Below are positions 2,905-31,149 of a stretch of DNA of 41,140 nt, piece by piece. Position numbers and translations under genes: made by a program. Each line of letters begins with the position of its first letter. Positions within the stretch are counted from its first letter, which is position 1. This stretch comes from Candidatus Methylacidiphilales bacterium. GTDB taxonomy: Bacteria > Verrucomicrobiota > Verrucomicrobiia > Methylacidiphilales > CAZTYG01. The stretch is from NCBI GenBank assembly GCA_033875315.1, contig JANRJG010000027.1, positions 1 to 41,140 on the forward strand, written 5' to 3'. The notes below the pieces were generated by a model that saw nothing but the letters and a program-made list of their open reading frames with translations, made no database searches and was not told the origin of the DNA.

Positions 2905-3516
2905 ATGTCCGTCATGACCCCGCTCACGTCCCGCCAAGCCGCCATCCTGGAGTTCATCCAGGCCTCGATGGCCCAGAGTGGCCTTCCTCCGACCATCCGG
3001 GAAATCGCCCGCCATTTCCGGCTCAAGAGCCCCTCGGCCGTGGCCAAGCATCTGGCGCGGCTGCGGGATAAAGGTGTGCTTTCCCCCGCCAAGGGCCGCT
3101 CGCGCGGCGCTCTCCCCACCCGACCCGTTACGCTTTTCACGTCCATTCCGGTGTTCGGCCACATCCCCGCCGGTGCCCCCTCTGCGCAGAGCCAAGGCGA
3201 TGAGGGATGTATCCGCGTCGACCTCGAAAGCATCGGCCTGCCCAAGAACGCCCGGACCTTTGCATTGAAAGTCCGCGGAGATTCCATGATCGGCGCGGGT
3301 ATCCTCGATCGGGACATCGTCATCCTGGAGTTCAAGAGCCCGCACGATGGGGCGGTGGTGGCGGCCCTGGTCGATGGGGAGACCACCCTCAAACGCTACT
3401 TCATGCGACGGGGGCAGCCTTGCCTGAGGGCTGAGAACCCCCGCTACCCCGACATCATCCCCGCGCGCGAGTTGGTCATCCAAGGCGTCATGGTCGCCTT
3501 GGTCCGCAAGGCATGA
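2905..3516 (+). CDS. lexA: LexA-family self-cleaving repressor
   Basis: Represses DNA-damage genes and self-cleaves when RecA filaments form. Numbering from ATG 2905: a winged helix-turn-helix at residues 5-65 (TSRQAAILEFIQ, LPPTIREIARHF, SPSAVAKHLARL); the cleavage bond Ala89-Gly90 in HIPAGAPS; the catalytic dyad Ser127 (RGDSM) and Lys163 (TTLKRYF). Length (203 aa) matches the family. An alternative start is ATG 2914. A GTG at 2884 is unlikely because it lies in the operator. The gene sits 12 bp upstream of the polymerase fusion, so the two are very likely one transcript under the palindrome at 2883-2900. The cassette thus encodes its own regulator. Whether it is independent of the chromosomal LexA cannot be seen here. 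Confidence 0.93.
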   Translation: MSVMTPLTSRQAAILEFIQASMAQSGLPPTIREIARHFRLKSPSAVAKHLARLRDKGVLSPAKGRSRGALPTRPVTLFTSIPVFGHIPAGAPSAQSQGDEGCIRVDLESIGLPKNARTFALKVRGDSMIGAGILDRDIVILEFKSPHDGAVVAALVDGETTLKRYFMRRGQPCLRAENPRYPDIIPARELVIQGVMVALVRKA

Positions 3517-3528
3517 AGGCGCCGAACC

Positions 3529-6500
3529 ATGATCATCCACCTCGACGCGGATGCGTTTTTTGCGTCGGTCGAGCAGGCCGCTGACCCGCGCCTGCGCGGC
3601 CGGCCGGTGGCCGTGGGGGGAAGCCGCCGCGGGATCATCGCCTCGGCCTCCTACGAAGCACGCCGACTGGGTGTCCACACCCCCATGCCCACGGCCCGGG
3701 CCTTGAAGCTCTGCCCAAACCTCATTGTTGTGCCCGGCGACTACGAAAAATACGAGCACTTCAGCCGCATGATGTTCACCTATGCCTACGACTTCACCCC
3801 CCAGGTCGAGGTGCAGGGCATTGATGAAGGCTACCTCGATGTCCGCGGTCACCCCCGCTTGACCGCAGAAGCCATCGCCACCGCCGTGCGCAAGGCCGTG
3901 CACGACACCCTCAAAATCACGGTCAGCGAAGGTGTGGGATCGAACAAGCTGATCTCCCAAATCGCCTCCAAGCTCCACAAGCCCGACCGGCTCACTGGCG
4001 TGCCCCCAGGCCAGGAACGGGCATTCCTCGCCCCCCTGGCGGCGACCTGGCTCCCGGGTGTGGGGCCGAAGGCGGGCCTGCGGCTGACCCAGGCCGGGTT
4101 GACGACCATCGGGCGCGTCGCGGAAACCCGCCCCGACGATCTCGCCCTTCTCGTGGGCGCTGCGGCGCCCGAACTCTGGAATTTTGCCCAAGGGATCGAT
4201 CCCCGTCCGGTGGTGCCCGAGGCACCCGCGGCCAAGTCCTACGGGGCCCAGGAAACCTTCGAGCAGGACCAAACCGACGAGGTCTTCCTCCTGGCCAAAC
4301 TTCACAGCCTGACGGACGGGCTGATGGCCCGTGTCCGGGCGGACGGCAAGATGGCCCGCACCCTCGCGGTCCGGATTCGTTACAACGACATGGATGAGTG
4401 CGAGCGCTCGGCTAGTCTCGACGAGCCAAGCTGCACGGAGGTGGACTTTCATCCGCTCTTGCGGTCCCTCCTGCGCAAAGCCTGGACCCGGAGGGTCAGC
4501 CTGCGGTTGGTCGCGGTCAAAGTCTCCAACGTCTATGACCTGCTCTACGACCCCGGCCTGCCGTTGGGGGGTGACCTCGACCGTGGACAAAAGGCCGCCG
4601 TTGCGCGGGTCATCGACGACATCCGCAGCCAGTTCGGACGGGGCGCCATCCTCCGCGGCCATGACCTGTGGCTACGCCACCATGAACAGGAGGTTCCGCA
4701 GCCGCCGCGGCAGCGTCGTTCTTCAACCCGCCGACACGCAGCACAGCAACCGACACCGCAGGCAAAACCCACCTGCGCCTTCCTCAACCTGAAGTCGCAC
4801 TATTCGTTTCTCGACTCGCTCCTTTCCCCTGCGGATGCCGTCCGCTTGGCCGCCGAAGCCGGAGCCCAGGTGGTGGCTCTGACCGATCCGAACCTCCACG
4901 GGATGGTCGAATTTTGTCAGGCCGCGCGCGAGGCCGGGATCCGCCCGGTGGTGGCCGCCGCGTTGCAGGTGACCGCCACCCCCTCGGAACCTCCGCAAAA
5001 CCTCAACGCCTATGTCTTGAGCCCCGACGGCCAGGTGCACCTTTGCCACCTCCTCTCCCTGCCACGGATCACGCGGCTCGATCTGTACGAGGCCCGCACT
5101 GGCCTCCTCGTTGCTCCCGCGGCTGACTGCGGTCCAGAGGTCCGCTACGCCCAGCCTGCAGACCGTCGTCTCTATGCGGTCGTGCAATCGATCCGTACGC
5201 TGACCCTGCTTGCTGAGCCCCACCCAGAGAAGCGGCGGGGCGCGTTTCATTTCCACCGCGATGCTGCTCCGCATCCCGACCTCCTCAAGACCCTCCTCGA
5301 CGCCGAAACCTATCAGCCCCCCATCGGTGGGCCGCTACTTATTCCAAGTTTCACCCCCGAAGACGGGCGCACCTCCAGGGAATTCCTCGCCAGGCTGGCC
5401 TTTGAAGGCGCCCGACAACGCTACGGCACGGACTGGACCCGTGTCCGCCCCCAGTTGGAGGAGGAATTGGCGATCATCGGCGAGGTTGGCTACGAGGATT
5501 ACTTCCTCCTCACCTGGGACACGCTGCAGCACTGCCGTGCCCGGGGCATCGATTGGATCACCCGCGGTTCGGCGGCCGATTCCCTGGTCTGCTACTGCCT
5601 CGGCATCTCCGGAGTCTGCCCGGTCCGCTTCGACCTCTACTTCAAGCGCTTCCTCAACCGCGACCGGATGGCACTCCACAAACTGCCGGACATCGACATC
5701 GATTTCCCCCATGACCGCCGCGACGAAGTTGTCCGCATGCTCCTCGACCAGCACGGAGCCCACGCGGCCATTGTCGGGGGGTTCAACACTTACCAAGGCC
5801 GCTCGGCCGTGGCCGACATCGCCAAAGTTCTCGGCGCCTCCGAGCGCCAGGTCCGCCAGTTCACCGAACGCTTCCCCCACGCCTCCGCCAGCCAGGTCGG
5901 AGCCGCCGCAGCGGCCTCCCAGGAGTTCGAGCACTGGGGCATGAACGAAGAGCCCTACCGCAGCGCGATTGATCTCGCCGCCCGCCTTGATGGCAGGCCA
6001 CGCCACGCGAAGATGCACCCCTGCGGGCTCGTGCTCTGCCGTCATCCCATCCGTTCGCTCACCCCGACCTTTGCGGCGGCCAAGGAAGGCTGGCCCACCA
6101 CCCACCTGGACATGCACGCCGTCGAAGCCATCGGCATGGTTAAAATGGACCTCCTGGCCCAGGCGGGCCTGAGTGTGCTGCGCGACACCCGCCAGGCCCT
6201 CGGCGCACGCGGCATCGACTGCGGGGTGGGAGACGGACGATCCCTCGAACCCTGGAAGGACGAAGCGATCTGGTCCATGATTGCCGTTGGCGAGTCGCGT
6301 GGCGTGCACCACATCGAGAGCCCCGCCATGCTCAACCTCGCCCGGATGTGCGGAGTAGGGCGGATCGATGATCTGGTCGCCATCGTTTCGGTCATCCGGC
6401 CCGGTGCGGCCAATGGGCTCAAGAAGAGCCAGTTCGCCCGCCGCTGCCGTGGCTTGGAACCCGCGGTTTATGCCCATGCGAGCCTCGAACCGGTGCTGCG

Positions 6501-7653
6501 CAGCACCTATGGGGTTGTCGCTTACGAGGAGCACATCGCCCAGATTTGCGAGGCGTTTTCCGGTCTGCCCGCCGGGCGGGGCGACCTCCTGCGTCGGGCC
6601 TTGGTCAAGGGGAAGACCGCCGACATCAATACGCTACGCATGGAGTTTGTGGACTGCGCCCAACGTGCCGGGCGCACGCCCCAGGAAATCGCCGCAGTCT
6701 GGGACCTATTGATCCAGTTCCAAGGCTACGCGTTCTGCCGCGCCCACTCCACGGCCTATGCGGTGGAGGCTTACGAGGCCGCCCACCTGAAACGCCGCTG
6801 GCCTCTGGAGTTTCTGGCCGCCGTCTTGGAGCACGGAAAAGGATTTTACCCACGACTGGTCTATTCCATCGAAGTTCGACGGCTGGGTTTCGGGTTCCGA
6901 CTCCCCGATGTCAACAGCCCACACTCTACTTACTTTGCCGATGCGGAGTGCGCCGTCATCGAGGTGCCGCTCAAGCAGGTCAAGGGACTGAAGGTCGAGA
7001 CCCTGGGCCGCATCGTCCAAGCCCGTGGCCACCGGCCCTTCGGATCCGTGGAGGATTTCGCCCTGCGGGTGGGGCCCTCGAGCGACGAAATGGAGGCGCT
7101 GCTGCGGGTGGGGGCACTCGATGGAATCACACCTTCTCGCACGGCCCAGTTCTGGGCCTGGAGGCGGGCGGCCCAGTGGTCGGTCGAAGGCAACCAAGGA
7201 CTCCTCTTCGCCGCCGCTTCCGAAAAAACCGAGGGGAGCCTGCCCGGCAACCGCGCCGAACCTTCGCACCACGACCGGCTCGCGGCGGAAATCGAACTCC
7301 TGAGCTTCCCCGTGTCCGGCCACCCCTTGGAGCTTTACCCGGAGGTCGATTGGTCCAAGAGCACCCCGATCCGGGACCTGGCGGGATACGTCGATCAAGC
7401 CGTCGAGGTCACCGGCCTGATCATCGAGCACCGGGTGCACACCCAGATTGATGGTCGGCCCATGAAATTCCTTACCCTGTGCGATCCCACCGGCACCGTG
7501 GATGCCGAGGTGTTTGCGGATGCCTACGCCCGATTTGGGGTACTCACGGCCCGTTACCCTGTGGTCACGGTCTGCGGCATTGTACGTGCCTTCGATGGCG
7601 GTGGGGGCCATGCCCTTGATGTTGAGATAATTATGACACCTCCGAAGCGGTAG
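3529..7653 (+). CDS. Fused Y-family (Pol IV/DinB) and C-family (DnaE) DNA polymerase
   Basis: One uninterrupted 1374-codon gene encodes two polymerases. Residues 1 to ~385 are a full Pol IV: HLDADAFF with metal ligand Asp6 and steric-gate Phe11, then GIDEGYLD with Asp99/Glu100, the helix-hairpin-helix WLPGVGPKAG, and a little-finger domain ending in GHDLWLRHH. A Pro/Gln/Arg-rich linker (~386-415) joins it to a DnaE2-like chain: PHP domain from ~416 (LKSHYSFLDS; the usual TDHG is TDPN, so PHP metal binding is probably lost), RGSAADSLVCYCLGIS, the catalytic PDIDID (Asp721/723/725), KMDLL with Asp874, HhH repeats, and an OB fold near 1285-1350. All polymerase active-site acids are kept. Known mutasomes (ImuB-DnaE2) use separate chains. 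I infer a single-chain SOS translesion enzyme. No clear clamp-binding motif was identified. Confidence 0.93.
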   Translation: MIIHLDADAFFASVEQAADPRLRGRPVAVGGSRRGIIASASYEARRLGVHTPMPTARALKLCPNLIVVPGDYEKYEHFSRMMFTYAYDFTPQVEVQGIDEGYLDVRGHPRLTAEAIATAVRKAVHDTLKITVSEGVGSNKLISQIASKLHKPDRLTGVPPGQERAFLAPLAATWLPGVGPKAGLRLTQAGLTTIGRVAETRPDDLALLVGAAAPELWNFAQGIDPRPVVPEAPAAKSYGAQETFEQDQTDEVFLLAKLHSLTDGLMARVRADGKMARTLAVRIRYNDMDECERSASLDEPSCTEVDFHPLLRSLLRKAWTRRVSLRLVAVKVSNVYDLLYDPGLPLGGDLDRGQKAAVARVIDDIRSQFGRGAILRGHDLWLRHHEQEVPQPPRQRRSSTRRHAAQQPTPQAKPTCAFLNLKSHYSFLDSLLSPADAVRLAAEAGAQVVALTDPNLHGMVEFCQAAREAGIRPVVAAALQVTATPSEPPQNLNAYVLSPDGQVHLCHLLSLPRITRLDLYEARTGLLVAPAADCGPEVRYAQPADRRLYAVVQSIRTLTLLAEPHPEKRRGAFHFHRDAAPHPDLLKTLLDAETYQPPIGGPLLIPSFTPEDGRTSREFLARLAFEGARQRYGTDWTRVRPQLEEELAIIGEVGYEDYFLLTWDTLQHCRARGIDWITRGSAADSLVCYCLGISGVCPVRFDLYFKRFLNRDRMALHKLPDIDIDFPHDRRDEVVRMLLDQHGAHAAIVGGFNTYQGRSAVADIAKVLGASERQVRQFTERFPHASASQVGAAAAASQEFEHWGMNEEPYRSAIDLAARLDGRPRHAKMHPCGLVLCRHPIRSLTPTFAAAKEGWPTTHLDMHAVEAIGMVKMDLLAQAGLSVLRDTRQALGARGIDCGVGDGRSLEPWKDEAIWSMIAVGESRGVHHIESPAMLNLARMCGVGRIDDLVAIVSVIRPGAANGLKKSQFARRCRGLEPAVYAHASLEPVLRSTYGVVAYEEHIAQICEAFSGLPAGRGDLLRRALVKGKTADINTLRMEFVDCAQRAGRTPQEIAAVWDLLIQFQGYAFCRAHSTAYAVEAYEAAHLKRRWPLEFLAAVLEHGKGFYPRLVYSIEVRRLGFGFRLPDVNSPHSTYFADAECAVIEVPLKQVKGLKVETLGRIVQARGHRPFGSVEDFALRVGPSSDEMEALLRVGALDGITPSRTAQFWAWRRAAQWSVEGNQGLLFAAASEKTEGSLPGNRAEPSHHDRLAAEIELLSFPVSGHPLELYPEVDWSKSTPIRDLAGYVDQAVEVTGLIIEHRVHTQIDGRPMKFLTLCDPTGTVDAEVFADAYARFGVLTARYPVVTVCGIVRAFDGGGGHALDVEIIMTPPKR

Positions 7654-10682: not shown

Positions 10683-11777
10683 ATGGCAGCCCCCCGTCAG
10701 TTCGAGATTCAATACCGCGGCCAGACCCATGGTCCCTACGAAGCCGACCAAGTGCTGGGACTCTTGGATTCGGGCCGTGTTTCCCGGTTCGCGCTGGTCC
10801 GTGATGTGGCTTCCAGCCAGTGGAGAAGCCTGGGGGATTTGGTAGCTGCGATTCGGTTCGGCCAAGCCGTGCCAGAGCAGACGCAAGTGGATGTATCGGC
10901 GCCCATTCAGCCCCCGCCGCTCCCGCCTGATCCCGAACCATTCCAAACACCCGAGGACTCTTCGGGTTCCCTGATCAGGATCCCTGATTTGCCTCCGTTG
11001 CCGGTCACTTACCTTGCCGCCGATCCGCCCAGAGGACTCGGCCATTGGCTGAGGGGCATCATCAAACATCTGCCTTGGCCCGTGAAACTCGTAGTTGCGA
11101 TGGGCTTTATCGGAATGGCGGTTTTCGGCACTGCGGGTGCCGGGTTCGTCTCCGCCGCCACGGGAGGCATCCCGGTCTTTCTTTCACTGCTCTTCCTGGG
11201 TTTCGCTTTCATGCTGGTGGGGATCATCACCACCATCCAGGCCATCTTCAGGGACCCCAAATCAGGAGCCTACCTCGGTGTGGTCATGGGAATGATTGCC
11301 CGCGATATTGCAGTGCGTCGGGCCTCCGATGCCCTCCAGAAAGCCATGGCGGCCAAACCTGCCGCCCCAGACAAGCAGCCCATGCCGCCAGACGAAGCCG
11401 ACCTGCGGCAGCGTCTGCTCGCCATGGACCCATTCGATTTTGAGCGCCATGTCATGTCCTTTTTCTCGGACGCGGGTATGGTCGCATGGGTGACCAAGAA
11501 GTCGAACGATGCCGGCGTTGACGGCTTTTCCCGGCACCCCAAGGGTTTGGTGGTTGTCCAATGCAAGCGGAACGCCGCCTCCAACCCGGTCGGTCGCCCT
11601 GTGGTCCAACAACTCAAGGGCGTGGTGGAGGAAAATCAGGCATGGTGCGGAATCATCGTCACCACCTCATCGTTCACGCTTGAGGCCCAGGCGAGTGGAG
11701 GCAAATCGGAGCGGATTGTCCTTGTGGACATGGATGCGTTGGTTGAATGGCATAAAACCGGACTGAGCCTAGATTGA
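10683..11777 (+). CDS. Membrane-anchored Mrr-type restriction endonuclease with GYF domain
   Basis: 364 aa in three parts. Residues ~5-55 are a GYF_2 domain (YRGQTHGPYEADQV...WRSLGDLV). Residues ~135-205 hold two to three hydrophobic membrane segments (LVVAMGFIGMAVFGTAGAGF, IPVFLSLLFLGFAFMLVGI). The C-terminal ~120 residues are an Mrr_cat PD-(D/E)xK fold: FERHVMSFF, then NDAGVDGF with the catalytic Asp, VVVQCKR with the QxK pair, and the GIIVTTSSFT strand. Mrr proteins cut modified or foreign DNA. Membrane tethering of a nuclease is seen in several anti-phage proteins that act on incoming DNA, so a defence role is a reasonable inference. The start follows the divergent gene closely. Confidence 0.85.
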   Translation: MAAPRQFEIQYRGQTHGPYEADQVLGLLDSGRVSRFALVRDVASSQWRSLGDLVAAIRFGQAVPEQTQVDVSAPIQPPPLPPDPEPFQTPEDSSGSLIRIPDLPPLPVTYLAADPPRGLGHWLRGIIKHLPWPVKLVVAMGFIGMAVFGTAGAGFVSAATGGIPVFLSLLFLGFAFMLVGIITTIQAIFRDPKSGAYLGVVMGMIARDIAVRRASDALQKAMAAKPAAPDKQPMPPDEADLRQRLLAMDPFDFERHVMSFFSDAGMVAWVTKKSNDAGVDGFSRHPKGLVVVQCKRNAASNPVGRPVVQQLKGVVEENQAWCGIIVTTSSFTLEAQASGGKSERIVLVDMDALVEWHKTGLSLD

Positions 11778-11840
11778 TGGACGATGCCTCATCCCAGATT
11801 AGGCCTCATTCCAACACTTTGTAATAAATAAGGGACTTCC

Positions 11841-13148
11841 ATGGGTTTACGTTTTCGCAAGCGAATCAAGATTCTTCCAGGGATCAACCTGAATCTGGGA
11901 CTTGGAGGAGTTTCGGTCAGCACGGGAGTTCCTGGCCTCCGTTTTAATCTCTCCAAGCGCGGACTCAGTCGCACGGTAGGCATCCCTGGGACTGGCTTCT
12001 ACCACACCGAAAGAATCAGGTCCGCACCCAGAAGGCAAAACTCGTTCTCCCGCGGTCAATCGGTTGCGATCCAAAGTTTGGAGGAATTGAAAGCAGCAGC
12101 CGCCACGCCGGGTGCTGTCTTCCGCCATAGGGATAGTGGCCGCAAGGCCTCCTCGGCCTCGGTCCTCGCCGAAATTAGGCGCATGGAGACACAGCGGGCC
12201 ATCTCTTCAGCACGCGATCAAATCCAGGCCGAGCAGGACCATCTCGAGGAGTTACTCAACTTTTGGAAGGACATTCCCCGGATCCCTTCGTGGGATGAAT
12301 ACACTGCGGCCTTGGCACCCGAAGTGTTTGTGACCGACTTGGCGCGACCCCTGGAACCGGACGAAGTCCAGGCACGTCGGGAGCACCTGTTTGGTTTGGA
12401 GCAGGAACTGGCTACACAATTTCCCTACCGCTTTCTCCCAAAGTTCACTTATCGGTCAAAGATCAAGGCCCTGGAGCACCAACGATGGCCCGGTTACTGG
12501 GAATGCCTGCTCGAAGCATTCAGGCAGAAATTCGAGGTTTACCAAGCTGAGTATTCACGCCAAGCGGAAGACTGGCAGACCGCAGAGGCCGAACGAACCC
12601 AGTTTCTTTATCGGATGATGTCCGGCGATCTTGAAGCTGTGGTGTCGGGGGCTGAAGCCACGATTGAGGCAATCAACTTCCCCTTCGAGACGGAGTGCGA
12701 AATCTTCGCCGGTGAAGCCGTTGCGCTATTCTTGCATCTCGACTTGCCAGAAATCGAAGATGTCATCCCTTCTCATCGCAAGGAAGTCCTCAAAAAAGGA
12801 TCGATCCGTGAGCGAAAAATCCCTCCCAAAGAAAGAAACGAGATGTATGCGCGCCTTGTTCTTGGGCATGCCGTCTTTGTGTCATCCACCATCTTGTCGG
12901 CCGTGCCTTACCCCCAGCATATCAATGTCACGGCCTATACCCAGCGAGCCCGTCGCAAGGCGGGAGATCCGGTGGACACGTATGTCTTAGGTTTGGGTAT
13001 GTCCCGCGAGGCGCTGGCCGCTTTCGATGCAGAGGTTGAGGATATCCTCGACTGGGTGAGGGGACAGCACCCGGTCATGGACCTCGACGCCGATTTCCAT
13101 TTCTGTCCTATCGAGCGTCCTGCCTGGCTGGCTGAGGTCGAATCCTGA
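11841..13148 (+). CDS. DUF4236-domain protein
   Basis: The first ~60 residues match DUF4236 (MGLRFRKRIKILPGINLNLG, VSVSTGVPGLRFNLSKRG, TVGIPGTGFYH), a small beta-rich domain of unknown function in many phage and accessory-region proteins. The remaining ~370 residues are not recognised: a helical stretch near 105-135 (RMETQRAISSARDQIQAEQDHLEELL) and a C-terminal region ending in an acidic ILDWVRGQHPVMDLD segment. It starts 63 bp after the GYF-Mrr stop and probably shares its transcript. It converges with the giant helicase gene, with only 16 bp between stops. Confidence 0.8.
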   Translation: MGLRFRKRIKILPGINLNLGLGGVSVSTGVPGLRFNLSKRGLSRTVGIPGTGFYHTERIRSAPRRQNSFSRGQSVAIQSLEELKAAAATPGAVFRHRDSGRKASSASVLAEIRRMETQRAISSARDQIQAEQDHLEELLNFWKDIPRIPSWDEYTAALAPEVFVTDLARPLEPDEVQARREHLFGLEQELATQFPYRFLPKFTYRSKIKALEHQRWPGYWECLLEAFRQKFEVYQAEYSRQAEDWQTAEAERTQFLYRMMSGDLEAVVSGAEATIEAINFPFETECEIFAGEAVALFLHLDLPEIEDVIPSHRKEVLKKGSIRERKIPPKERNEMYARLVLGHAVFVSSTILSAVPYPQHINVTAYTQRARRKAGDPVDTYVLGLGMSREALAAFDAEVEDILDWVRGQHPVMDLDADFHFCPIERPAWLAEVES

Positions 13149-13164
13149 GTCTTCGCCGTATGTC

Positions 13165-16100
13165 TCAGCCTGCCGGTCCTTCACCGATGGCACCCATGCA
13201 CTCTTGGTGTTTACGGAGGATTTGGTGTCGGTTCGCATGAATGTCCCTGAACGCCGAAGGACTCCAAATCCGGCAAAGCTTCCATTTCGTGAGACGCTCA
13301 AGAATGAAGTGCCTGAATGCCTCCCAATCGACCGGGTCTGGGGCTTTGCCATAGCGGTTGAAGTCGCACAGGAGCCCCGCGGTGACATACAGCGGCTTTT
13401 CTGGGTGGTTGAGAGCCACATCCACGCAGAAGCCGTCGTTGCCCCAGTGGACAAATCCACCCAGGCCGAGGTGCTGGTTCGTATCCCGTCCACACCCCAG
13501 TGCAGCCACCGACGGGTAACTGTTCTGGAGTTCAACCATCTTGCCCTGCAATTCTTTGGCGGCCTCCTGCAGGTCGGCGTTCTTTTGTTTGAACTCAGTC
13601 TCTAGCTTCTCGGCGTAGTGGAGGTATTGGTAAAGCAGGATCCGCCCGTTGGGTTGGGTTCCTTCCGGCGTTTCGACAGCGGCGGCGTATTCAGATCGCG
13701 GAATGGAGGTCACGATGTGGACTTGGTCGCGGGCACGGGTTACGAGCACATTGAGGCGCCTCCCCCCATTTGTGGCCGATAGTGGGCCGAAGCCGCGGCG
13801 GAATTTGCCCTCAGGGTTGACCCCGAAAGTAGTGGAGATGATGATGTGGTCGCGCTCGTCCCCCTGGACGTTCTCCAGGTTCTTCACGAAAAGCCCTTCG
13901 AAGGATTGGCGGCCGCGGCGTTTGCGGGCATCGGCAAGTTTGGCCGCAAAATCGGGGTCTGCCTCCGCCTCCGCGTCGAGAGTTTCCAGAATCAACTCCC
14001 TCTGGGTCAGGTTGAAGCAGGCGATGCCGATGGTCGGCGGCGTAGGTTGGTTGAGCAGCTCTTTGACTATCCGACAAACTTCCTGGGCCTCCCGCTCGTT
14101 CTGGCGATCCTTGTAGAGGCCTCCGACTTGAACCAATTTCAAGGGCGAAGACGGAGCCAGGCTATTCGGGTGTGCAGGGATTGCCTGGAGCCGTCCTTTG
14201 TAGAAGGACTTGTTGCTGAATTCGATAAGGGCCGCATTGGACGAGCGGTAATGAACGTCGAGGTATGCCTCGTGAACGCTCAGGTTCAGTGCCGCACCGA
14301 GCAGGTCTTCTGTGTCCGCCTGCTGGGCCTGGAAGGCATCTTCCTCGCTCTCAATTTCGTCGTCCGATGAATCCACTACTCCAGACTCAAAAAAGCGGGT
14401 GGGGGGAAGCTGCTTGGGGTCCCCGGCCACAACGACCCGGCGGGCACGCAGGAGCACTGGCAGGGCTTCCTCAAGCCGGCATTGGGAGGCCTCGTCAAAG
14501 ACGACCACATCGAACAGGGCGGTCCGCGGGAAAATCTGGGCCACGGTGTTGGGACTCGACATCCAGACCGGACAAAGGTCGTAAAGCGGATCCCCACCAT
14601 CGGCAGCCTGGCCCACCTCGATCATCTTGCGGAGTTTGAGCGCACGGGCCCCGCGGGTCAAAAGCCGCGTCTTGAGGTTGGCGCCCTGGCTGTTCATCTG
14701 GGTCCCGGTTCCGGCAAGCAGGCGTTGGCGCGCACGTGTCTGCCACCAGGACTGGGTCTCCTGCACGGTGAGCACGCGTTTCTGCTCCTGAAGCTGGATG
14801 TAACTGTGGAGCAGTGAGTCCACCCGTTCGCTGGAGATGTGTTGCAGAGCCGAGTCGGCTCCCAGGCGCTGCCGGATGGCATTGGCCAAGGCCAGCTTGC
14901 GCAAGGCCGCAGAGGCTTCCTCATGGGAGGCCCCCACCATGGCGATGTGCTCCATCTGCCCCCGCACCGCGGCAGGAAGTTCGGCCAAGGCCGCCTCCAA
15001 ACGCAGCACATGCTCTAGGGTCGGCAGAAGCCGCTTGAGTTCCTCCAGGGTGGTGGTCACCGATCCATTGGAACGCATCGTTTCTCCCATGGAGCGGCGC
15101 TCGCTCTCACACAAAAGGCCCGAGGCGGCGGCGTGTTCTTCCCAGGTCGCAATCGCATCGGCTCGGCTGGCCGACAGCTCAAACGCATAAGCCAGCCAAT
15201 CCAGATGCTCCTTCGAGGCGAGGTATGCACGCACCATGTCCCAATGTGGGGCCAGCTCTGGGGTCGAGACGACCATGGAGAGCCCCCGGATGGCACGGGT
15301 GAGGAAATCATAAAGCCCCAGGACTTCGGCGTCATCCATCCACCGCGCGGCTTCGGTTCCCAAGGCCACATTGACCGCTCCACAGGCCTTTTGGCGTGCT
15401 TGGACACCCCGGAGGTAGGCAATCCCACTGGCGACGCTCTCCGGGCTTGGGGTGAGGCCCAGGCCTTGCAGAGCATCCTTGGCCGCCTTGGCCTTGCCTG
15501 CGAACAGGAATCGATACCACTTGGCGCAGACCGGCTCGAACGCTTCCAAAGCCGCAAGATTTCCCGCCGCCTGCCCGATGCTGATGGCCGAGGGCGGTGC
15601 GGACAGGAAAAGCCCAGTATCCAAGGGCGCCTGACGCACTTTCTGAATCTCGCCTTCGACTTGGTCGAGGAGATGGGCAAGGCGTTCCAGGCTGGCTTGG
15701 TCCATGGCCTGGATCTGGGCCACTGCCTCCAAACGGAAAACCGGGGAGACCTCGCGGAGCGCCGCGGCCAATCCCCGGCGCGCCTGGGCCTGGGGCGCCA
15801 GCGGCTCAGATCCCAGGACCGGAAGGCTTTCGTGGGCAAATTGATCAACCGTCGAGGCCAGCGTGATGACCTGGCCCGCATGCTCGGCCAGATCCTGGGG
15901 AGTGGCGGACAGGAACTGCCCCACGGACCAACCGCAGGACTGCCTCCACGGGTTTTGCCCGTAGAGGGATTGGGCCGCACGCGTGGTGATCTCCTCGACC
16001 GAGGCCTGGGCGTTCTCGGCATCCTGGAGGGTGATCTGCCCCGCCGAGGCGGTGGGCGTCAGGAGGGCTTCCGGTGGGTTCAGGAGCAGCCACTGGCCGA

Positions 16101-17484
16101 ACAGATCATGGAAGGACGATTCTCCCTCCCCGGACGAACCATGCAGGCTGTGCTGGTAGCCCCGCAGTTCGGCATGAATCTTTTCCAACTGCTCGTTGAT
16201 CCGAGTCAATTCCCTGGCCGGGCTGGGGATGACCGGTTCATCGACCAGGTTGTCCAGCCGCTGGCGCAGGCTCATGTAAAGTTCCTTCTGCTCGCGCTTG
16301 GGATCATGGATTAGCGCACAGAGATGGCCCAGACCCGCCGCGTCCAACCGGTATTTGACCACATCCAGCGCGGTTCGCTTGTCGCAGACAAAAAGAACCC
16401 GTTCGCCACGGGCTAGGTGGGAACCAATGATGTTGGTGATCGTCTGGCTCTTCCCGGTCCCCGGAGGACCATGGATGACCACCACAGGCTTGGCGGCTGC
16501 CGCATGCACGGCCGCGGCCTGGCAGGGGTCGGCATAAGTGACCAAATGCTCGTCCTGAAACGCCCGTCGCAGCTCGGCGGCGGGGGCTTCAGGCCCGCCA
16601 TCCACCGCATCCTCACGGCTTGGGCCAATCGCTTCGGGTCGCAAGAACGTCGCCACCGGGGCCACCAGTTTGGACTCCTCAGAGACCATCCAACGCGTGT
16701 CACTTAAGAGTCCCTGGTTGGCCAGAGGAAAAAGGCCAAGAACCGCGGCGGGCAAAATCGAAGGATCGTCGCCCATGTCCTCCGCCTTGGGCACAGGCGT
16801 CAATTCGACCGCTTCCCCGATGGCGGGCGGGTTCGGGATGTCGAGCGCCTTGCTGACAGCCTCCACAAGCCCGGAGACTTCCTGCCAGGGCTGGTTGCCT
16901 TCCTCGTCCGAGAACAGGTCCAGGACATCCTGGCCGGTTTGCTGCCGAATCCAGGCCAAAAGGGCGGGATTGGGCACCACGCGGTCGATCCCATCGGCAT
17001 TGGCCGAGATCGTCACCCCCTTGCGGGCTCCCAGACGCACCGCAAGGTTGATCGGAATGAAGCCCAGCGGAGCGACAATCCGGGTCGTGCGCTCCGGGCG
17101 TGGGGGCACATGCAAGATCGGGAACCCAATGCTCAGCGCCGACTCCCCGTGGTCATGCTCATAGTCGCTCGCATCCTCGGCGATCTCCCGAAGCTTGTGC
17201 AGGAGTGATTCCTGGGCCTCCGACTTGGCCTTGGCCTCCTTCATTGCCGGGGTCAACTCCCGGGGTGCCGGGTCCGGCATGCGGAAAACCGGCACCCGCG
17301 CCGGCACCTCCGCCGCGGCATCGGGCCCCAGGAGACGTGCCAGCAGCTCGCCCGACTGGGGACTTGCGAAGGCCGCCAGCATGGTCACGTCCAGGCGTTG
17401 GCGGCTGCGATGGGGACGGGCATTGAGGCACGGTCCGTTAACCAGGCTGCGATAGAGCCGGTCGAGCATGACATCAAGGATCAT
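13165..17484 (-). CDS. Very large SF1 helicase with C-terminal Vsr-like domain
   Basis: About 1440 aa; I chose ATG 17484 (MILDVMLDRLYRSL) because AGGAAGG precedes it. A ~300-residue N-terminal region is followed by Walker A HGPPGTGKSQT, an ~500-residue helical insertion, the DEAD-like motif VVVFDEASQ with GDPKQLPP (motif III), and the RecA2 core with VQGDERDHIIIS and LNVLVTRARDQV (motifs V-VI). The last ~110 residues resemble a PD-(D/E)xK/Vsr-like domain (GFCVDVALNHPEKPLYV...RIWS), though its catalytic residues look degenerate. Helicases of this UPF1-like layout with a Vsr-like tail recur in defence islands, for example Hhe-type systems. I infer a role against foreign DNA. It may be transcribed with the WYL regulator and zinc-knuckle gene upstream. 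Confidence 0.88.
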   Translation of the reverse strand: MILDVMLDRLYRSLVNGPCLNARPHRSRQRLDVTMLAAFASPQSGELLARLLGPDAAAEVPARVPVFRMPDPAPRELTPAMKEAKAKSEAQESLLHKLREIAEDASDYEHDHGESALSIGFPILHVPPRPERTTRIVAPLGFIPINLAVRLGARKGVTISANADGIDRVVPNPALLAWIRQQTGQDVLDLFSDEEGNQPWQEVSGLVEAVSKALDIPNPPAIGEAVELTPVPKAEDMGDDPSILPAAVLGLFPLANQGLLSDTRWMVSEESKLVAPVATFLRPEAIGPSREDAVDGGPEAPAAELRRAFQDEHLVTYADPCQAAAVHAAAAKPVVVIHGPPGTGKSQTITNIIGSHLARGERVLFVCDKRTALDVVKYRLDAAGLGHLCALIHDPKREQKELYMSLRQRLDNLVDEPVIPSPARELTRINEQLEKIHAELRGYQHSLHGSSGEGESSFHDLFGQWLLLNPPEALLTPTASAGQITLQDAENAQASVEEITTRAAQSLYGQNPWRQSCGWSVGQFLSATPQDLAEHAGQVITLASTVDQFAHESLPVLGSEPLAPQAQARRGLAAALREVSPVFRLEAVAQIQAMDQASLERLAHLLDQVEGEIQKVRQAPLDTGLFLSAPPSAISIGQAAGNLAALEAFEPVCAKWYRFLFAGKAKAAKDALQGLGLTPSPESVASGIAYLRGVQARQKACGAVNVALGTEAARWMDDAEVLGLYDFLTRAIRGLSMVVSTPELAPHWDMVRAYLASKEHLDWLAYAFELSASRADAIATWEEHAAASGLLCESERRSMGETMRSNGSVTTTLEELKRLLPTLEHVLRLEAALAELPAAVRGQMEHIAMVGASHEEASAALRKLALANAIRQRLGADSALQHISSERVDSLLHSYIQLQEQKRVLTVQETQSWWQTRARQRLLAGTGTQMNSQGANLKTRLLTRGARALKLRKMIEVGQAADGGDPLYDLCPVWMSSPNTVAQIFPRTALFDVVVFDEASQCRLEEALPVLLRARRVVVAGDPKQLPPTRFFESGVVDSSDDEIESEEDAFQAQQADTEDLLGAALNLSVHEAYLDVHYRSSNAALIEFSNKSFYKGRLQAIPAHPNSLAPSSPLKLVQVGGLYKDRQNEREAQEVCRIVKELLNQPTPPTIGIACFNLTQRELILETLDAEAEADPDFAAKLADARKRRGRQSFEGLFVKNLENVQGDERDHIIISTTFGVNPEGKFRRGFGPLSATNGGRRLNVLVTRARDQVHIVTSIPRSEYAAAVETPEGTQPNGRILLYQYLHYAEKLETEFKQKNADLQEAAKELQGKMVELQNSYPSVAALGCGRDTNQHLGLGGFVHWGNDGFCVDVALNHPEKPLYVTAGLLCDFNRYGKAPDPVDWEAFRHFILERLTKWKLCRIWSPSAFRDIHANRHQILRKHQECMGAIGEGPAG

Positions 17485-17597
17485 AGAAGGCCTTCCTGGT
17501 AAAGCCCGCCTTCTTAACAAAGAAGCGAGGGGATGTCTTCAAGAAACCGCAATCAGTATCACAGCCGCCGCCGGCTTCTACTTTAGAAGATAACTAC

Positions 17598-18654
17598 TCA
17601 TTTGCTGGGCTTACTCCGATAGTGCTCTCTAACGTAAGTGCCATCTTTACGTAAGTAACCATCAACATGCACGGTCTTTGGCACACCGTAAGCATTAGGT
17701 TGACTATAGTAGCTTCCGTTTTCTGCTACACGCTGGCCGAATAGCGCTGGCTCGGATAATGTAATTGAAGGGCCAGGTGTAGATCGAAAATGCGACCTTA
17801 CATAAGCGCCATCGGTCTTGAAGTATCCCCGAACGAAAACCGTCTTTGGACGACCGGTTTCCTTGCTGATTTCCCCATAATAGGAGCCGTTTTCAGCTAC
17901 GAAGCTACTGGTAACGGGCGAGCTTACTGGAGCGCGCGGAGCCTCGGGAGAAAGCAGAGGACGGGCTGAAAGACTGTAAGTAAGCGCAGCGATATCGCGA
18001 TGAACCGCGACTATTGAATCTACTTACTCCAACACCTGAACAAGACGCACAAGCAGAGAATACTGCTTTACCATTACAAAAGTAGCAGACACCGCGTCGC
18101 CCGGTGCCGTTGCAGATGTAACACTTGGCACGCCTACCCGTGCCATTGCAGTAAAAGCAAGTCGATCGCTTGCCTGTGCCTTCACAAGAGAAACACGCAG
18201 CACGTCGTCCAGAACCTTTGCAGGAGAGGCATGACTTTTTCCTTCCTGTTCCACCACATGAAAAACACGTGCCGTAAGGCCTCCGCCCCGTGGCAGAACA
18301 GATGCGGCAATCTTGCTTAGTCAAATCCTCGCCGTGGCAGCTCAGGCAGATTTTCTGAGTCAGATCTTCCCCTCGACATACCAAGCAAGTTTTCTGTGTG
18401 ATATCTTCTCCGCGACAGACCGAACACACCTTCTGCGTCAAATCTTCTCCGCGACAACTTCCGCATACTAACAGAGCGAGATTCTCACCTTTGCAATAGC
18501 CGCAAGTGTATTTACCAGAGCCTTTACAGCTTGGGCATTCGATGCGTTCGACATCGTAAACTGCTTCTGGCGGTATCTCAGCATTTGCTGACAAACAAGC
18601 CAGAACCCAACAGATGAATAAACCTAAAACAGAGTGTAAAGAATTACGCTTCAT
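17598..18654 (-). pseudogene. Secreted zinc-knuckle repeat protein, frameshifted near the C-terminus
   Basis: The open part (18654 to 17905, 249 aa) has a signal peptide (ends near LSANA) and a long array of CxxC modules: first a GED-type repeat (CxxCRGEDLTQK, about five copies), then DnaJ-like CxxCxGTGRR repeats. That frame then becomes Ser/Arg-rich and stops at 17905. Another frame of the same strand continues with two copies of a known repeat (VAENGSYYGE...GRPKTVFVRGYF...TYVRSHF; second copy ENGSYYSQ...TYVREHY), ending at TGA 17598-17600. The two parts look like one gene with a shift between about 17910 and 18030. It lies 20 bp after the WYL regulator gene. Function is unknown; an exported scaffold is one possibility. 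Confidence 0.7.
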
Positions 18655-18673
18655 TCAGGGACCCTCACAGTAG

Positions 18674-19714
18674 CTACCGGACTTGAGTGTTCACAGGAGG
18701 ACGGAGGCACTCAGAGTCGGATGACCCCTTCGATTCATACGTCTGAGCTGCAACAACCAGCCTCCGGCCAATCGAGTCGCACAACGAAGGCGGGTGGATA
18801 ACCTTCGCATGCTCCCCCCAGCCCAAAATCCACCGCTCCAACTCTGGGGACTGAACCACTCTCAGTCGCAGCCTGAGCCTACCGTCTGGCAAGTCATCGA
18901 TGGTCTGGCTGGCATGCCAAATCCGCTCCTGGACCCATCGCGCTGCGATAGGGTCAAACTCGACCTCAACATCGACCACTTCACCTCCCACATAAACCCC
19001 CATGCTTCCCTCCAACTCAGCCTGGATCGCACTAAGGTCAGGGCTAGTAAACTGGGTGCTGAGCATCCTGGCGGTCCGCATACGACAGAGAGCGAAGGTC
19101 TTAATCATGCCGCCGGCGAACTCATAGCCCAGAAGCACCCATTGACCCTGGCCACAGCGCAAATGGTATGGCCGCACCCGGCGACGCCGAAAAGCTTGGT
19201 CCTTGATGCCCCGATAGTGGAACTCCAATTCTTGGTTCCGCGATAGCGCCTGGACAACTGTCATATAGAGGTCATGGTCAAAGTTGACCAAGCCCTCGCG
19301 CGCGATGCTGATGCCGTTGCGCAGATCCTCCCAGGAGAACCCGTATTGGGCGGACTTCTCCACGGCGAACCGGCGGATGGTTTGACGAAGAGGCGCTTCA
19401 AATCCTGTTCCCTGCGAGGCGGAGACCACTTTCTCCGCCACCATCAGCGCGAAGATTTCATTCTCGGTCAGGTTCAGCCCTGGCGGCGGCTTCAGGTATT
19501 TCCAGAGGCCTTCGGCCCGGTCAAAGGCGATGTCATGCCCCCGACGCATCATCTCCTGGAGGTCATTCCAGATTGTCTTGCGGGTCACGCCCAATTCGTT
19601 GGCGACGGCCTCCATAGACCGGAGACGCCCGGCCTGGATCTCCTGTTTCAAGCGATCAAAGCGTTCGAGCATGTTTAGGCTCACCCGCCGGAGGGGTTTC
19701 TTGGGCTTTTTCAT
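18674..19714 (-). CDS. WYL-domain transcriptional regulator
   Basis: 346 aa. The N-terminal ~70 residues form a DeoR-type winged helix-turn-helix (SMEAVANELGVTRKTIWNDLQEM). Residues ~150-235 are a WYL domain (QELEFHYRG, RRRVRPYHLRCGQGQWVLLGYE, TFALCRMRTARML), and a WCX-like C-terminal domain follows (VDVEVEFDPIAARWVQERIWH). WYL regulators sense nucleic-acid ligands and often control defence genes. Here it heads a same-strand series with the zinc-knuckle and helicase genes (20-bp gap, then about 110 bp) and is divergent from DUF3892. It is a plausible regulator of those genes. Confidence 0.9.
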   Translation of the reverse strand: MKKPKKPLRRVSLNMLERFDRLKQEIQAGRLRSMEAVANELGVTRKTIWNDLQEMMRRGHDIAFDRAEGLWKYLKPPPGLNLTENEIFALMVAEKVVSASQGTGFEAPLRQTIRRFAVEKSAQYGFSWEDLRNGISIAREGLVNFDHDLYMTVVQALSRNQELEFHYRGIKDQAFRRRRVRPYHLRCGQGQWVLLGYEFAGGMIKTFALCRMRTARMLSTQFTSPDLSAIQAELEGSMGVYVGGEVVDVEVEFDPIAARWVQERIWHASQTIDDLPDGRLRLRLRVVQSPELERWILGWGEHAKVIHPPSLCDSIGRRLVVAAQTYESKGSSDSECLRPPVNTQVR

Positions 19715-24068: not shown

Positions 24069-24863
24069 ATGCTTTACCGCATGAAGCAATCTTCCACCAA
24101 TCCAAGCGTAAATGTGCCCGCGCGACGCATAACCAAGAGTCATACCTCGCTTACAGGGTTCATTGTCGCAGGGAAGGCCGGCGGCTCAGTTGCTTTCGAG
24201 TCCAGGTTGGAGCGGGACTACTTCATCCAACTGGACTTCGATCCCGCTGTCCGCTCATTCGCTGCCCAGCCCCTGAAAATTCAATACACGGGCCGGGACG
24301 GTAAACAACACTCCTATACACCAGATGTGCTGGTCCAGTATAGCAAGTCCCCCTGGGGTAACCGCGGACCCAAAACGGATTTGGTTGAAATCAAGAGCGA
24401 CGCGGATCTGGCCAGGAAATCCGGTCTCTACGAAGAGCGCTTCAAGGCCGCAGCAGAATACGCCGCGAAAAGAGGCTGGAAATTTAGCGTGCTGAGGGAA
24501 CGCGATATCCAAACTGACTTCAACCGCAACGCATTCTTTCTCTGGGGGTTCAGAAGGCATCGGGAGCACCGTCCACATACCGCCATAGTTCGTGCCGCTA
24601 TCCGCCGGCTCAACAGCACTACCGTTGGGCAGTTGCTGGATGAAGCCATTCTGTTGCACGAGACCAGACACGGGCTTCCCGGCAGCTTTGAAGACCCCGA
24701 CATGGTGAAGGCGACCTATTTGGCAACAATTTGGAAGCAGCTTAGCTCCGGCTACATCGAAGCAGACCTCAATAAGGCGCTCCACAACCGCACGGAGGTT
24801 TGGGTCTCTGCTGGCCACTCCCAACGTCCAAGATCAGGACTGATTTCCTTCGACCATGAGTAA
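24069..24863 (+). CDS. tnsA: TnsA-like (TniC) transposon-end endonuclease
   Basis: 264 aa. In Tn7-like elements TnsA cuts the 5' strands at the transposon ends, working with TnsB to give cut-and-paste movement. The restriction-endonuclease core is complete: Glu44 (AFESRLERDYF), Asp86 (YTPDVLV) and the ExK pair Glu107/Lys109 (DLVEIKS). A TnsA C-terminal helical domain follows (DEAILLHETRH). The start is ATG 24069; ATG 24081 is possible. It overlaps tnsB by 8 bp, indicating a coupled operon. The IS3 element lies 130 bp upstream and may have altered its promoter (a TTGACA occurs at about 23983). Confidence 0.9.
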   Translation: MLYRMKQSSTNPSVNVPARRITKSHTSLTGFIVAGKAGGSVAFESRLERDYFIQLDFDPAVRSFAAQPLKIQYTGRDGKQHSYTPDVLVQYSKSPWGNRGPKTDLVEIKSDADLARKSGLYEERFKAAAEYAAKRGWKFSVLRERDIQTDFNRNAFFLWGFRRHREHRPHTAIVRAAIRRLNSTTVGQLLDEAILLHETRHGLPGSFEDPDMVKATYLATIWKQLSSGYIEADLNKALHNRTEVWVSAGHSQRPRSGLISFDHE

Positions 24864-26709
24864 CGTCATTAAACTGGTGAAGGGTTCGCTGGTGCGGAGA
24901 AACTCTCGCGAGTTTATCGTCCGCGATATTCTCAATGAGACTGAAGTGCTTCTCACCGACATTTCAGAAAATGTGAATCTGGTTGCCGCCATTTCGAGTC
25001 TCGAACCAATCAGAAATGACGAAGCGGTTGCCATTCCCGACCTTGCAGCGATATCGGAGGAGGCATGGTCTGTGGCCGAACAGCGCTTTCGGGTGGTCCA
25101 CGCACTGCTTGACCGGAGAACCACCGTGAAAGACTGCGCCGAGGCTGCGCGTAACGCCGGAATTCATCCTGCAACGCTATATCGGTGGCGGCAAAGATTA
25201 CTCCGGGAAGGATCTATCGCCGCACTCATTCCCCGAAAGTGCGGGAGAGTCGCTGGCCGCAAGGTCCTGGACGCAGCTATAGAAGAAGTCATCCAGTCCT
25301 GCATCAAGGAGGTGTACCTGCAACCCGCCAGGGCTACATTTGGGACGCTGCACGAAGACATCCTCATAAAGTGCCGCGAACTGAAGCTTCGCGCTCCCCA
25401 CATCAACACCGTAAGGGCGAGGCTCCGTGACATACCCCGTCGAGAGGTCGTTATGGCGCGGCTTGGATCAGATGTTGCCGAGCAAGCCTACGGAACAAAT
25501 ATGGATACGCCCGCCGTCGCCGACCTTCTCGATGTCGTCCAGATAGATCATACGCTGCTCAACATCATCGTTGTAGATGACGAGTCACGACTCCCGATCG
25601 GAAGACCGTGGATTACAGTGGTGATGGATGTGGCCACCCGCGTCGTACTGGGTTTCTGTCTGGCGCTTGAACCGCCAGGGGCTCTGTCTGTGGGTTTGGC
25701 CCTTTGCCATGCCATCCGCATGAAGGAGCACTGGGCATTTGGGCTCAAACTGAGCACTGATTGCGATTGGCCCTTCTTCGGGGTCCCCAAGTTTGTCCAT
25801 GCGGACAACGCGAAGGAATTTCGAGGGGAAATGCTCAAGAGGGCCTGCACGCAGTACCAGATCAACCTGCAATGGCGCCCCGTCAAGAAGCCCAACTGGG
25901 GTGGACATATCGAACGCTACATGGGGACTCTTTCAGAGAAGCTGAAAGGCCTGCCGGGCGCCACCTTCTCCAACCCCAAAGAGCGCGGAAACTTCCCTTC
26001 CGAGAAAAGCGCATCAATGACCTTGAAGGAATTGGAGCGATATCTGGCGACTATAATCGATGGTGAATACCACCGCAAGGTCCACTCCAGCCTGGGCATA
26101 AGTCCTCGGGAGGCTTGGAGGCGCGGCATTACTTGTAGCGCCAAGAATCGTGGCTGCGGCCTGCCCCCTTTTGTTGACGACGAAGAGCGGCTCCGGATGG
26201 ACTTACTTCCCTTTGTAGAGCGGACAATTACCGACTACGGGGTCCGAATCAAGGGCATACACTACTATGCGGATGTCCTGCGGCCTTACACACATGCCAC
26301 CATCCCAGGGCGGGCAAGAATAAAGCGGCAGTTCATTTTCCGCTACGACCCGCGGGACATCAGCGAAATCTATCTGTGGGATGAGAAAAACAGCCGCTAT
26401 CATCCTATCCCCTATAGGAACACGGGACTTCCTCCGATCAGTCTATGGGAGCTTCAAGCTGTCAGAAGGCGGCTGCGTGAAAAGGGGCTTACCCAGGATG
26501 ATGAATCAGTCATTTTTAACACATACAAGGAATTGCGCCGTCAGATCAGCACTTCGGAAAAAGCGACAAAGCGAGCGCGCAGGCAGGCTCAGGCCAAGCG
26601 TCTTTCCGGTAAACCAGCCAAGACTACCCAATCCACGATGCCTATTGAGCACAGTTCTAAGCACGAACAGTTTGCGCCGGACATGGTTGGAATCAGGTTT
26701 AGATCATGA
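24856..26709 (+). CDS. tnsB: TnsB-like (TniA) DDE transposase
   Basis: 617 aa. It binds the end repeats and joins 3' ends to target DNA. An N-terminal helix-turn-helix region (DCAEAARNAGIHPATLYRWRQRL, ~residues 95-117) precedes the integrase core with Asp231 (VVQIDHTLL), Asp317 (HADNAKEF) and Glu353 (GGHIERYMG); the last two are 35 residues apart, the classic D-35-E spacing. A Mu-type C-terminal beta-barrel (GIHYYADVLRPYTH, FIFRYDPRDISEIYLWD) and a basic tail that would contact TnsC follow. Length and domain order fit TnsB/TniA. Stop and the next start overlap (ATGA). Confidence 0.95.
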   Translation: MSNVIKLVKGSLVRRNSREFIVRDILNETEVLLTDISENVNLVAAISSLEPIRNDEAVAIPDLAAISEEAWSVAEQRFRVVHALLDRRTTVKDCAEAARNAGIHPATLYRWRQRLLREGSIAALIPRKCGRVAGRKVLDAAIEEVIQSCIKEVYLQPARATFGTLHEDILIKCRELKLRAPHINTVRARLRDIPRREVVMARLGSDVAEQAYGTNMDTPAVADLLDVVQIDHTLLNIIVVDDESRLPIGRPWITVVMDVATRVVLGFCLALEPPGALSVGLALCHAIRMKEHWAFGLKLSTDCDWPFFGVPKFVHADNAKEFRGEMLKRACTQYQINLQWRPVKKPNWGGHIERYMGTLSEKLKGLPGATFSNPKERGNFPSEKSASMTLKELERYLATIIDGEYHRKVHSSLGISPREAWRRGITCSAKNRGCGLPPFVDDEERLRMDLLPFVERTITDYGVRIKGIHYYADVLRPYTHATIPGRARIKRQFIFRYDPRDISEIYLWDEKNSRYHPIPYRNTGLPPISLWELQAVRRRLREKGLTQDDESVIFNTYKELRRQISTSEKATKRARRQAQAKRLSGKPAKTTQSTMPIEHSSKHEQFAPDMVGIRFRS

Positions 26710-27605
26710 GTTCGCATTTACACAGGCACGTTATCCCGCATCTCTCCCTTCCTATGGAAGCGAGAGTGCTTCAACTCACTGAGGAGGTTTGGATTCCTTA
26801 CCGACGGGGTGAAGAAATCCTGGACTACTTACAGGAGTTGCTGATGATGAACCGCAGAGCAAGACCGCACAGTGCGCTTCTTGTAGGTCCTACCAACAAC
26901 GGAAAGTCTTTTATTCTGAAGGAATTCTTGCTTCGCAATCCAAGTCCACGGTGCCTACCCAGCGAAGCAGATGTCGCACCCATCGTCTACATCCAGGCGC
27001 CCGAGGAGCCAAAGGAAAGCACATTCTTCGATGCGATTTTGGGGCAATTCTCGACTCCTTGCCGACCCGGCGATCCCGTTAATCAAAAGCGGTATCACGC
27101 ACTCCAAATTCTTAAGGGTGTTGGAACCAAAATCCTCATAATCGATGAGATTCAGCACATCTTGGCGGGGGACAATAAACGGCAGCGGGTGATGCTTAAT
27201 CTGATCAAGTATCTTAGTAACGAGCTCGGGATATCAATTGTAGCGGCTGGTGTTGAAACAGCGCTCAACGCGATTCAAATTGATAATCAGGTCGCGAATC
27301 GGTTTCTCCCCATTCCACTGCCTCGCTGGAAGTACGATGAGGAGTATAGGAAACTTCTCGCGACGTTTGAGGCGGTCATTCCGTTGGCTCTTCCCTCCGC
27401 GTTTGCTTCACGGGAGATGTCTTATGTGCTCTGGGAACAGAGTGGAGGCTTGATCGGAGAGCTGTCCACGCTCCTTGCGACTGCAGCACGATTCGCGATC
27501 AAAAACGGGGAGGAACGAATTACCATTGAGATCCTAAATGCCATCGATTGGACCGCGCCGGGAGATCGAAGGAGAAAGACTGAACTCACGTTTGAACCCT
27601 ACTAG
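26706..27605 (+). CDS. tnsC: TnsC-like (TniB) AAA+ regulator
   Basis: 299 aa. An ATP-dependent filament-forming regulator linking target selectors (TniQ, TnsE) to the transposase. Walker A is GPTNNGKS (residues 61-68) and Walker B is ILIIDEIQ (Asp147/Glu148). An arginine-containing sensor region (NQVANRFLPIPLPRW) follows. It is shorter than Tn7 TnsC and closer in length to TniB proteins. It overlaps tnsB by 4 bp and the 5' extension of tniQ downstream. Confidence 0.94.
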   Translation: MSSHLHRHVIPHLSLPMEARVLQLTEEVWIPYRRGEEILDYLQELLMMNRRARPHSALLVGPTNNGKSFILKEFLLRNPSPRCLPSEADVAPIVYIQAPEEPKESTFFDAILGQFSTPCRPGDPVNQKRYHALQILKGVGTKILIIDEIQHILAGDNKRQRVMLNLIKYLSNELGISIVAAGVETALNAIQIDNQVANRFLPIPLPRWKYDEEYRKLLATFEAVIPLALPSAFASREMSYVLWEQSGGLIGELSTLLATAARFAIKNGEERITIEILNAIDWTAPGDRRRKTELTFEPY

Positions 27606-31097: not shown

Positions 31098-31149
31098 TTA
31101 TTTCCCACTTGCGGTTGACAAACCTCAGGTGCCTGGACTTAACCTAAAC

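Follow-up and report, generated by a model that had tools for sequence, protein, structure and literature searches.

A bacterial protein that joins a Y-family and a C-family DNA polymerase in one chain behind lexA

The window analysed here is a 41,140-nucleotide stretch from Candidatus Methylacidiphilales bacterium (GCA_033875315.1, contig JANRJG010000027.1, positions 1 to 41,140). It contains a single open reading frame that encodes both a DinB-like Y-family polymerase and a DnaE2-sized C-family polymerase, and this frame starts 12 bases after the stop codon of lexA. The features of the locus are as follows.

2883-2900 (no strand assigned): LexA-type operator, palindrome GGTGAACATTTGTTCACC; LexA binding is inferred
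2905-3516 (+): lexA, with HTH and S24 self-cleaving domain; Ala-Gly site, Ser and Lys present
3529-7653 (+): fused Y-family/C-family DNA polymerase, 1374 aa
3541-3972 (+): Y-family catalytic domain (IMS); Asp6, Asp8, Asp99, Glu100
4234-4533 (+): Y-family little finger (IMS_C)
4591-4674 (+): RecA-N-terminal-like motif (residues 355-382), with a helix predicted at 349-369
4690-4767 (+): flexible linker (residues 388-413)
4786-5061 (+): PHP domain with degraded metal site
5383-6159 (+): C-family palm/thumb (DNA_pol3_alpha); Asp721, Asp723, Asp874
6250-6666 (+): C-family finger domain
6895-7143 (+): helix-hairpin-helix (HHH_6)
7195-7209 (+): possible clamp-binding pentapeptide QGLLF (residues 1223-1227); the family pattern Q-G-W/L-L-L/F/I is moderately conserved and the function is inferred from position
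7408-7632 (+): OB fold, below the Pfam cut-off

The polymerase frame is open for its entire length, with no internal stop. Pfam places IMS at residues 5-148, IMS_C at 236-335, PHP at 420-511, DNA_pol3_alpha at 619-877, the finger domain at 908-1046, HHH_6 at 1123-1205 and a sub-threshold OB fold at 1294-1368 (23.2 bits against a cut-off of 27). NCBIfam matches the first part to DNA polymerase IV models and the second part to DnaE models. Asp6, Phe11, Asp99, Glu100, the PDIDID motif at 720-725 and Asp874 are where the initial annotation, which described a complete Pol IV followed by a complete DnaE-like polymerase, had placed them. The C-family half is, however, DnaE2-sized (959 aa, compared with 1265 aa for the frame of the genome's own DnaE1), and the initial annotation missed both the RecA-binding-type motif in the linker and the lexA gene with its operator immediately upstream. 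No solved chain was found to span both halves, as sequence and fold searches hit Pol III alpha with the C-family part and DinB-type enzymes with the first 390 or so residues. An AlphaFold model of residues 1-1200 (mean pLDDT 81.5, pTM 0.64) shows two folded lobes with a disordered stretch at 388-413 (pLDDT under 50). The fingers of the Y-family half are poorly modelled (pLDDT under 50 at 11-77) and the mutual orientation of the two lobes should not be trusted.

We next asked whether the fusion is conserved. Of 60 genomes from the same order, two others carry the full fusion, at 60% and 54% identity. A scan of 84,980 GTDB species genomes, from which the best 80 relatives were kept, returned loci that all appear to belong to Verrucomicrobiota; record titles are Verrucomicrobiota or generic, apart from a few MAG labels that look mis-assigned (for example Klebsiella). 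In 79 of these 80 loci both halves lie in one open frame, with linkers of variable length. The best-80 cut favours fused, close relatives, so this proportion is not a prevalence, and in an even sample of 289 genomes of the phylum only three had a match at E <= 1e-150, one of them without the Y half, indicating that the fusion is patchy. In three long members (loci L087, L088 and L100) the extra segments are low-complexity or repeat-like, and no intein was recognised by eye. No phage record covers 80% of the query, and a plasmid search made with the C half only gave under 60% identity. Across the 80 aligned fusions (window protein included; homologues at 44-62% identity to it), all seven catalytic acids (Asp6, Asp8, Asp99 and Glu100 of the Y-family half; Asp721, Asp723 and Asp874 of the C-family half) are unchanged wherever the residue is present, so both active sites look maintained.

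In a tree of C-family proteins, the fusion forms one clade (support 100) with a long stem, together with the split genes of a related family (f4, see below). This clade is separate both from the genome's own DnaE1, which lies on another contig, and from DnaE2 of the ImuABC type found in related genomes. Its loose neighbours are the two-gene DnaEs of Persicobacter and Desulfosarcina, although long branches meet here, and the C-family half scores below the NCBIfam cut-off for error-prone polymerases (433 against 939); whether it belongs to the DnaE2 group is unclear. The Y half forms one clade near active DinB-type enzymes and away from ImuB. The PHP metal site is degraded: the genome's own DnaE1 reads HLHVHTEYS...TDHGN, whereas the fusion reads LNLKSHYS...TDPN. 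This supports the loss of the metal site proposed in the initial annotation, but it adds little, as DnaE2 enzymes nearly always show it (PMC12926913).

Residues 355-382, between the two polymerases, read KAAVARVIDDIRSQFGRGAILRGHDLWL and resemble the N-terminus of RecA. A profile of the 80 homologues aligned against what we take to be residues 1-74 of E. coli RecA scored 23.7, compared with 15.9 for the best of 60 column shuffles, and against the genome's own RecA it scored 20.3 versus 12.0. The motif is conserved among the homologues, but it is short and its statistics are modest, and Pfam DUF4113 was not detected in the window linker. Published work identifies this motif as the RecA or ImuA docking element of Y-family proteins (PMC6511836, PMC11791113). 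In split relatives the Y-family gene ends shortly after the motif, which places the fusion point just behind it.

The upstream gene matches the LexA model TIGR00498 at 155 bits, contains LexA_DNA_bind and Peptidase_S24 domains, and is the only S24 gene found in the genome. Its start was set at ATG 2905 because the listed GTG at 2884 lies inside the operator. Among the homologous loci, an S24 gene lies within 400 bases upstream on the same strand in 68, encoding a full LexA in 46 and a short, UmuD-like protein in 22, and the self-cleavage site and the Ser/Lys pair are kept in those aligned. Many loci also carry TGTTC-N4-GAACA, which appears to be the Verrucomicrobia LexA box (Erill et al. 2016). 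This sequence lies 400-900 bp upstream of the polymerase in 25 of 76 loci; only 27 copies, 25 of them in this upstream interval, occur in all 926 kb of these loci, and the reversed control pattern gave none. The window has no such site within one mismatch and fewer two-mismatch hits than chance. Instead, it carries the perfect palindrome GGTGAACATTTGTTCACC at its lexA, the 16-mer core of which, GTGAACANNTGTTCAC, has one exact copy in the 3.15-Mb genome. No LexA-like palindrome was seen in front of recA, leaving the SOS regulon in this genome unclear.

Not all relatives are fused. Genomes of family f4 have PolY and DnaE as separate genes, in the best case with a crcB gene between them on the other strand. 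The tree of Y-family sequences puts these split genes outside the fused ones (92/93), but the C-family tree does not, and AU tests (p = 0.44 and 0.47) do not distinguish whether the two-gene arrangement is the older state or a later break.

The nearest known counterpart of the fusion is the DnaE2B-PolY-RecA system of Bacteroidetes, which has been predicted computationally (Timinskas and Venclovas 2019, PMC6511836; Timinskas et al. 2026, PMC12926913). The comparison made in the initial annotation, with separate ImuB and DnaE2 chains, was therefore too narrow. These systems pair an active Y-family polymerase carrying a RecA-NT motif with a DnaE2-type polymerase without proofreading, have no ImuA and often have regulatory genes alongside, and they are predicted to be RecA-bound mutasomes. 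Persicobacter shows this pair, with a PolY with intact motifs followed by DnaE. They are, however, encoded by two genes rather than one chain, and the C halves are separated by long branches and only loosely sister. The two surveys describe DnaE2B with active or inactive PolY and RecA as multi-gene systems and mention no Y/C fusion in the text searched, and further searches of openly licensed papers found none.

The ImuA-ImuB-DnaE2 mutasome is a LexA-controlled partnership of a Y-family protein with DnaE2, but it consists of separate chains with a catalytically dead ImuB, an ImuB-C domain and ImuA. Only one match to the RecA family was found in the genome at E <= 0.001, so no ImuA was seen. 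E. coli Pol V (UmuD'2-UmuC-RecA) resembles the fusion in having a Y-family polymerase with a RecA-NT motif beside an S24 self-cleaving protein, and in Verrucomicrobiaceae the neighbour of the fusion is UmuD-like. Pol V lacks a C-family half, however, and the neighbour in the window is a full LexA. The replicase alpha subunit DnaE1 shares the C-family core, but the genome's separate DnaE1 has intact PHP motifs and the C half of the fusion is shorter.

Together, these results are best explained by a LexA-controlled, RecA-dependent translesion mutasome built as one chain, a reading in which we have reasonable but not full confidence. Under this model, DNA damage makes LexA cleave itself, which opens the lexA-polymerase operon, and the RecA-like motif between the two polymerases docks the chain on a RecA filament. 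The Y-family half then inserts nucleotides opposite the lesion, and the DnaE2-like half, which lacks proofreading, extends the distorted end and fills the gap, without the partners having to be assembled from separate subunits. The fusion and its conservation are firm, but RecA binding, SOS induction, both polymerase activities and the hand-over from one to the other are inferred from sequence in the absence of biochemical or expression data. Insertion followed by extension, as suggested in the initial annotation, is a fair inference. It is further possible, though this is more tentative, that a RecA protomer sits at the hinge between an inserter and an extender, such that bypass runs from insertion to extension within one molecule without partner exchange, in a single-chain class of mutasome largely confined to Verrucomicrobiota.

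How cells hand a damaged primer end from an inserting to an extending polymerase is hard to study because the partners assemble transiently, and a single chain with both active sites fixed in a one-to-one ratio gives a clean system in which each site can be killed separately in the same molecule. The fusion also indicates that the PolY-DnaE2 partnership, so far inferred from gene neighbourhood and models, is close enough to be covalent in a whole lineage, and it places the RecA docking motif between the two polymerases. Such fusions are strong evidence of physical partnership for the unfused systems elsewhere.

Alternatively, the Y-family half might work as an ImuB-like adaptor to RecA and the clamp, with only the DnaE half synthesising DNA. 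In ImuABC the Y-family partner is a dead adaptor and DnaE2 does the synthesis, and Desulfosarcina ovata has a lexA-DUF72-PolY-DnaE operon in which PolY has lost its catalytic motifs. This appears unlikely, because Asp6, Asp8, Asp99 and Glu100 are, unlike in ImuB, invariant in every fused homologue that covers them, and the two-gene relatives in the same order also keep them.

Two further possibilities seem less likely still. The protein might serve in repair synthesis, such as gap filling after excision or break repair, rather than in lesion bypass, as DnaE2 has been linked to excision-coupled synthesis in non-replicating bacteria (PMC8102061) and LexA control does not specify the substrate. 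A Y-family active site and a RecA-type motif, however, point to bypass on RecA-coated DNA. Slightly less plausible is that two chains are made in the cell, by an internal start or by cleavage in the linker, so that the protein behaves as an ordinary two-subunit system. The linker is long, variable and disordered, and a two-gene version exists in family f4. Nevertheless, the window linker has no in-frame ATG, GTG or TTG codon (residues 384-423), only 7 of 80 homologues have a start codon there with a Shine-Dalgarno-like sequence, and separate genes would do the same job, yet 79 of 80 loci keep one frame.

Although the window is a draft contig (42 contigs in the assembly), an assembly or reading-frame artefact is refuted by the presence of the same fusion in 79 other loci, including the Brevifollis gellanilyticus NBRC 108608 and LW23 genomes.

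A DUF72 protein sits next to lexA in the window (divergently oriented) and in LW23, and inside the lexA-PolY-DnaE operon of a Desulfosarcina plasmid (window 1337-2899; L126:1292-2098 and L097:3273-4301). DUF72 occurs near the fusion in 12 loci; it is possible that this protein is an unrecognised SOS partner. In L040, L041, L045, L071, L089 and other Verrucomicrobiaceae loci, the upstream S24 gene lacks the LexA DNA-binding domain and looks like UmuD, suggesting a Pol V-like partner for the fusion there.

In family f4, in which the PolY and DnaE genes are split, a crcB-type fluoride channel gene is inserted on the opposite strand between the two (loci L141:5387-5885 and L146). The genome G024 (locus L136) holds both the fusion and an adjacent pair of an ImuB-like gene and a DnaE2. 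In the G036 genome (locus L149:2973-4766) the Y-family half breaks off at about residue 261 and runs on in frame into a histidine kinase and receiver domain, which reflects either a rearrangement or a misassembly. The homologues L087 and L088 (after residue 1139) and L100 (after residue 903) carry roughly 100-200-residue low-complexity in-frame inserts in the C-family half that look like translated genomic repeats.

Elsewhere in the window, the following genes were identified:

10683-19714, a defence-like cluster comprising an Mrr-type restriction endonuclease, a DUF4011/AAA helicase with a nuclease-like tail and a WYL regulator

24069-28905, Tn7/Tn5053-like transposition genes encoding a TnsA-like nuclease, a Mu-type transposase, TniB and TniQ

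31129-33147, a large serine recombinase with Resolvase and Recombinase domains, located downstream of the transposon genes
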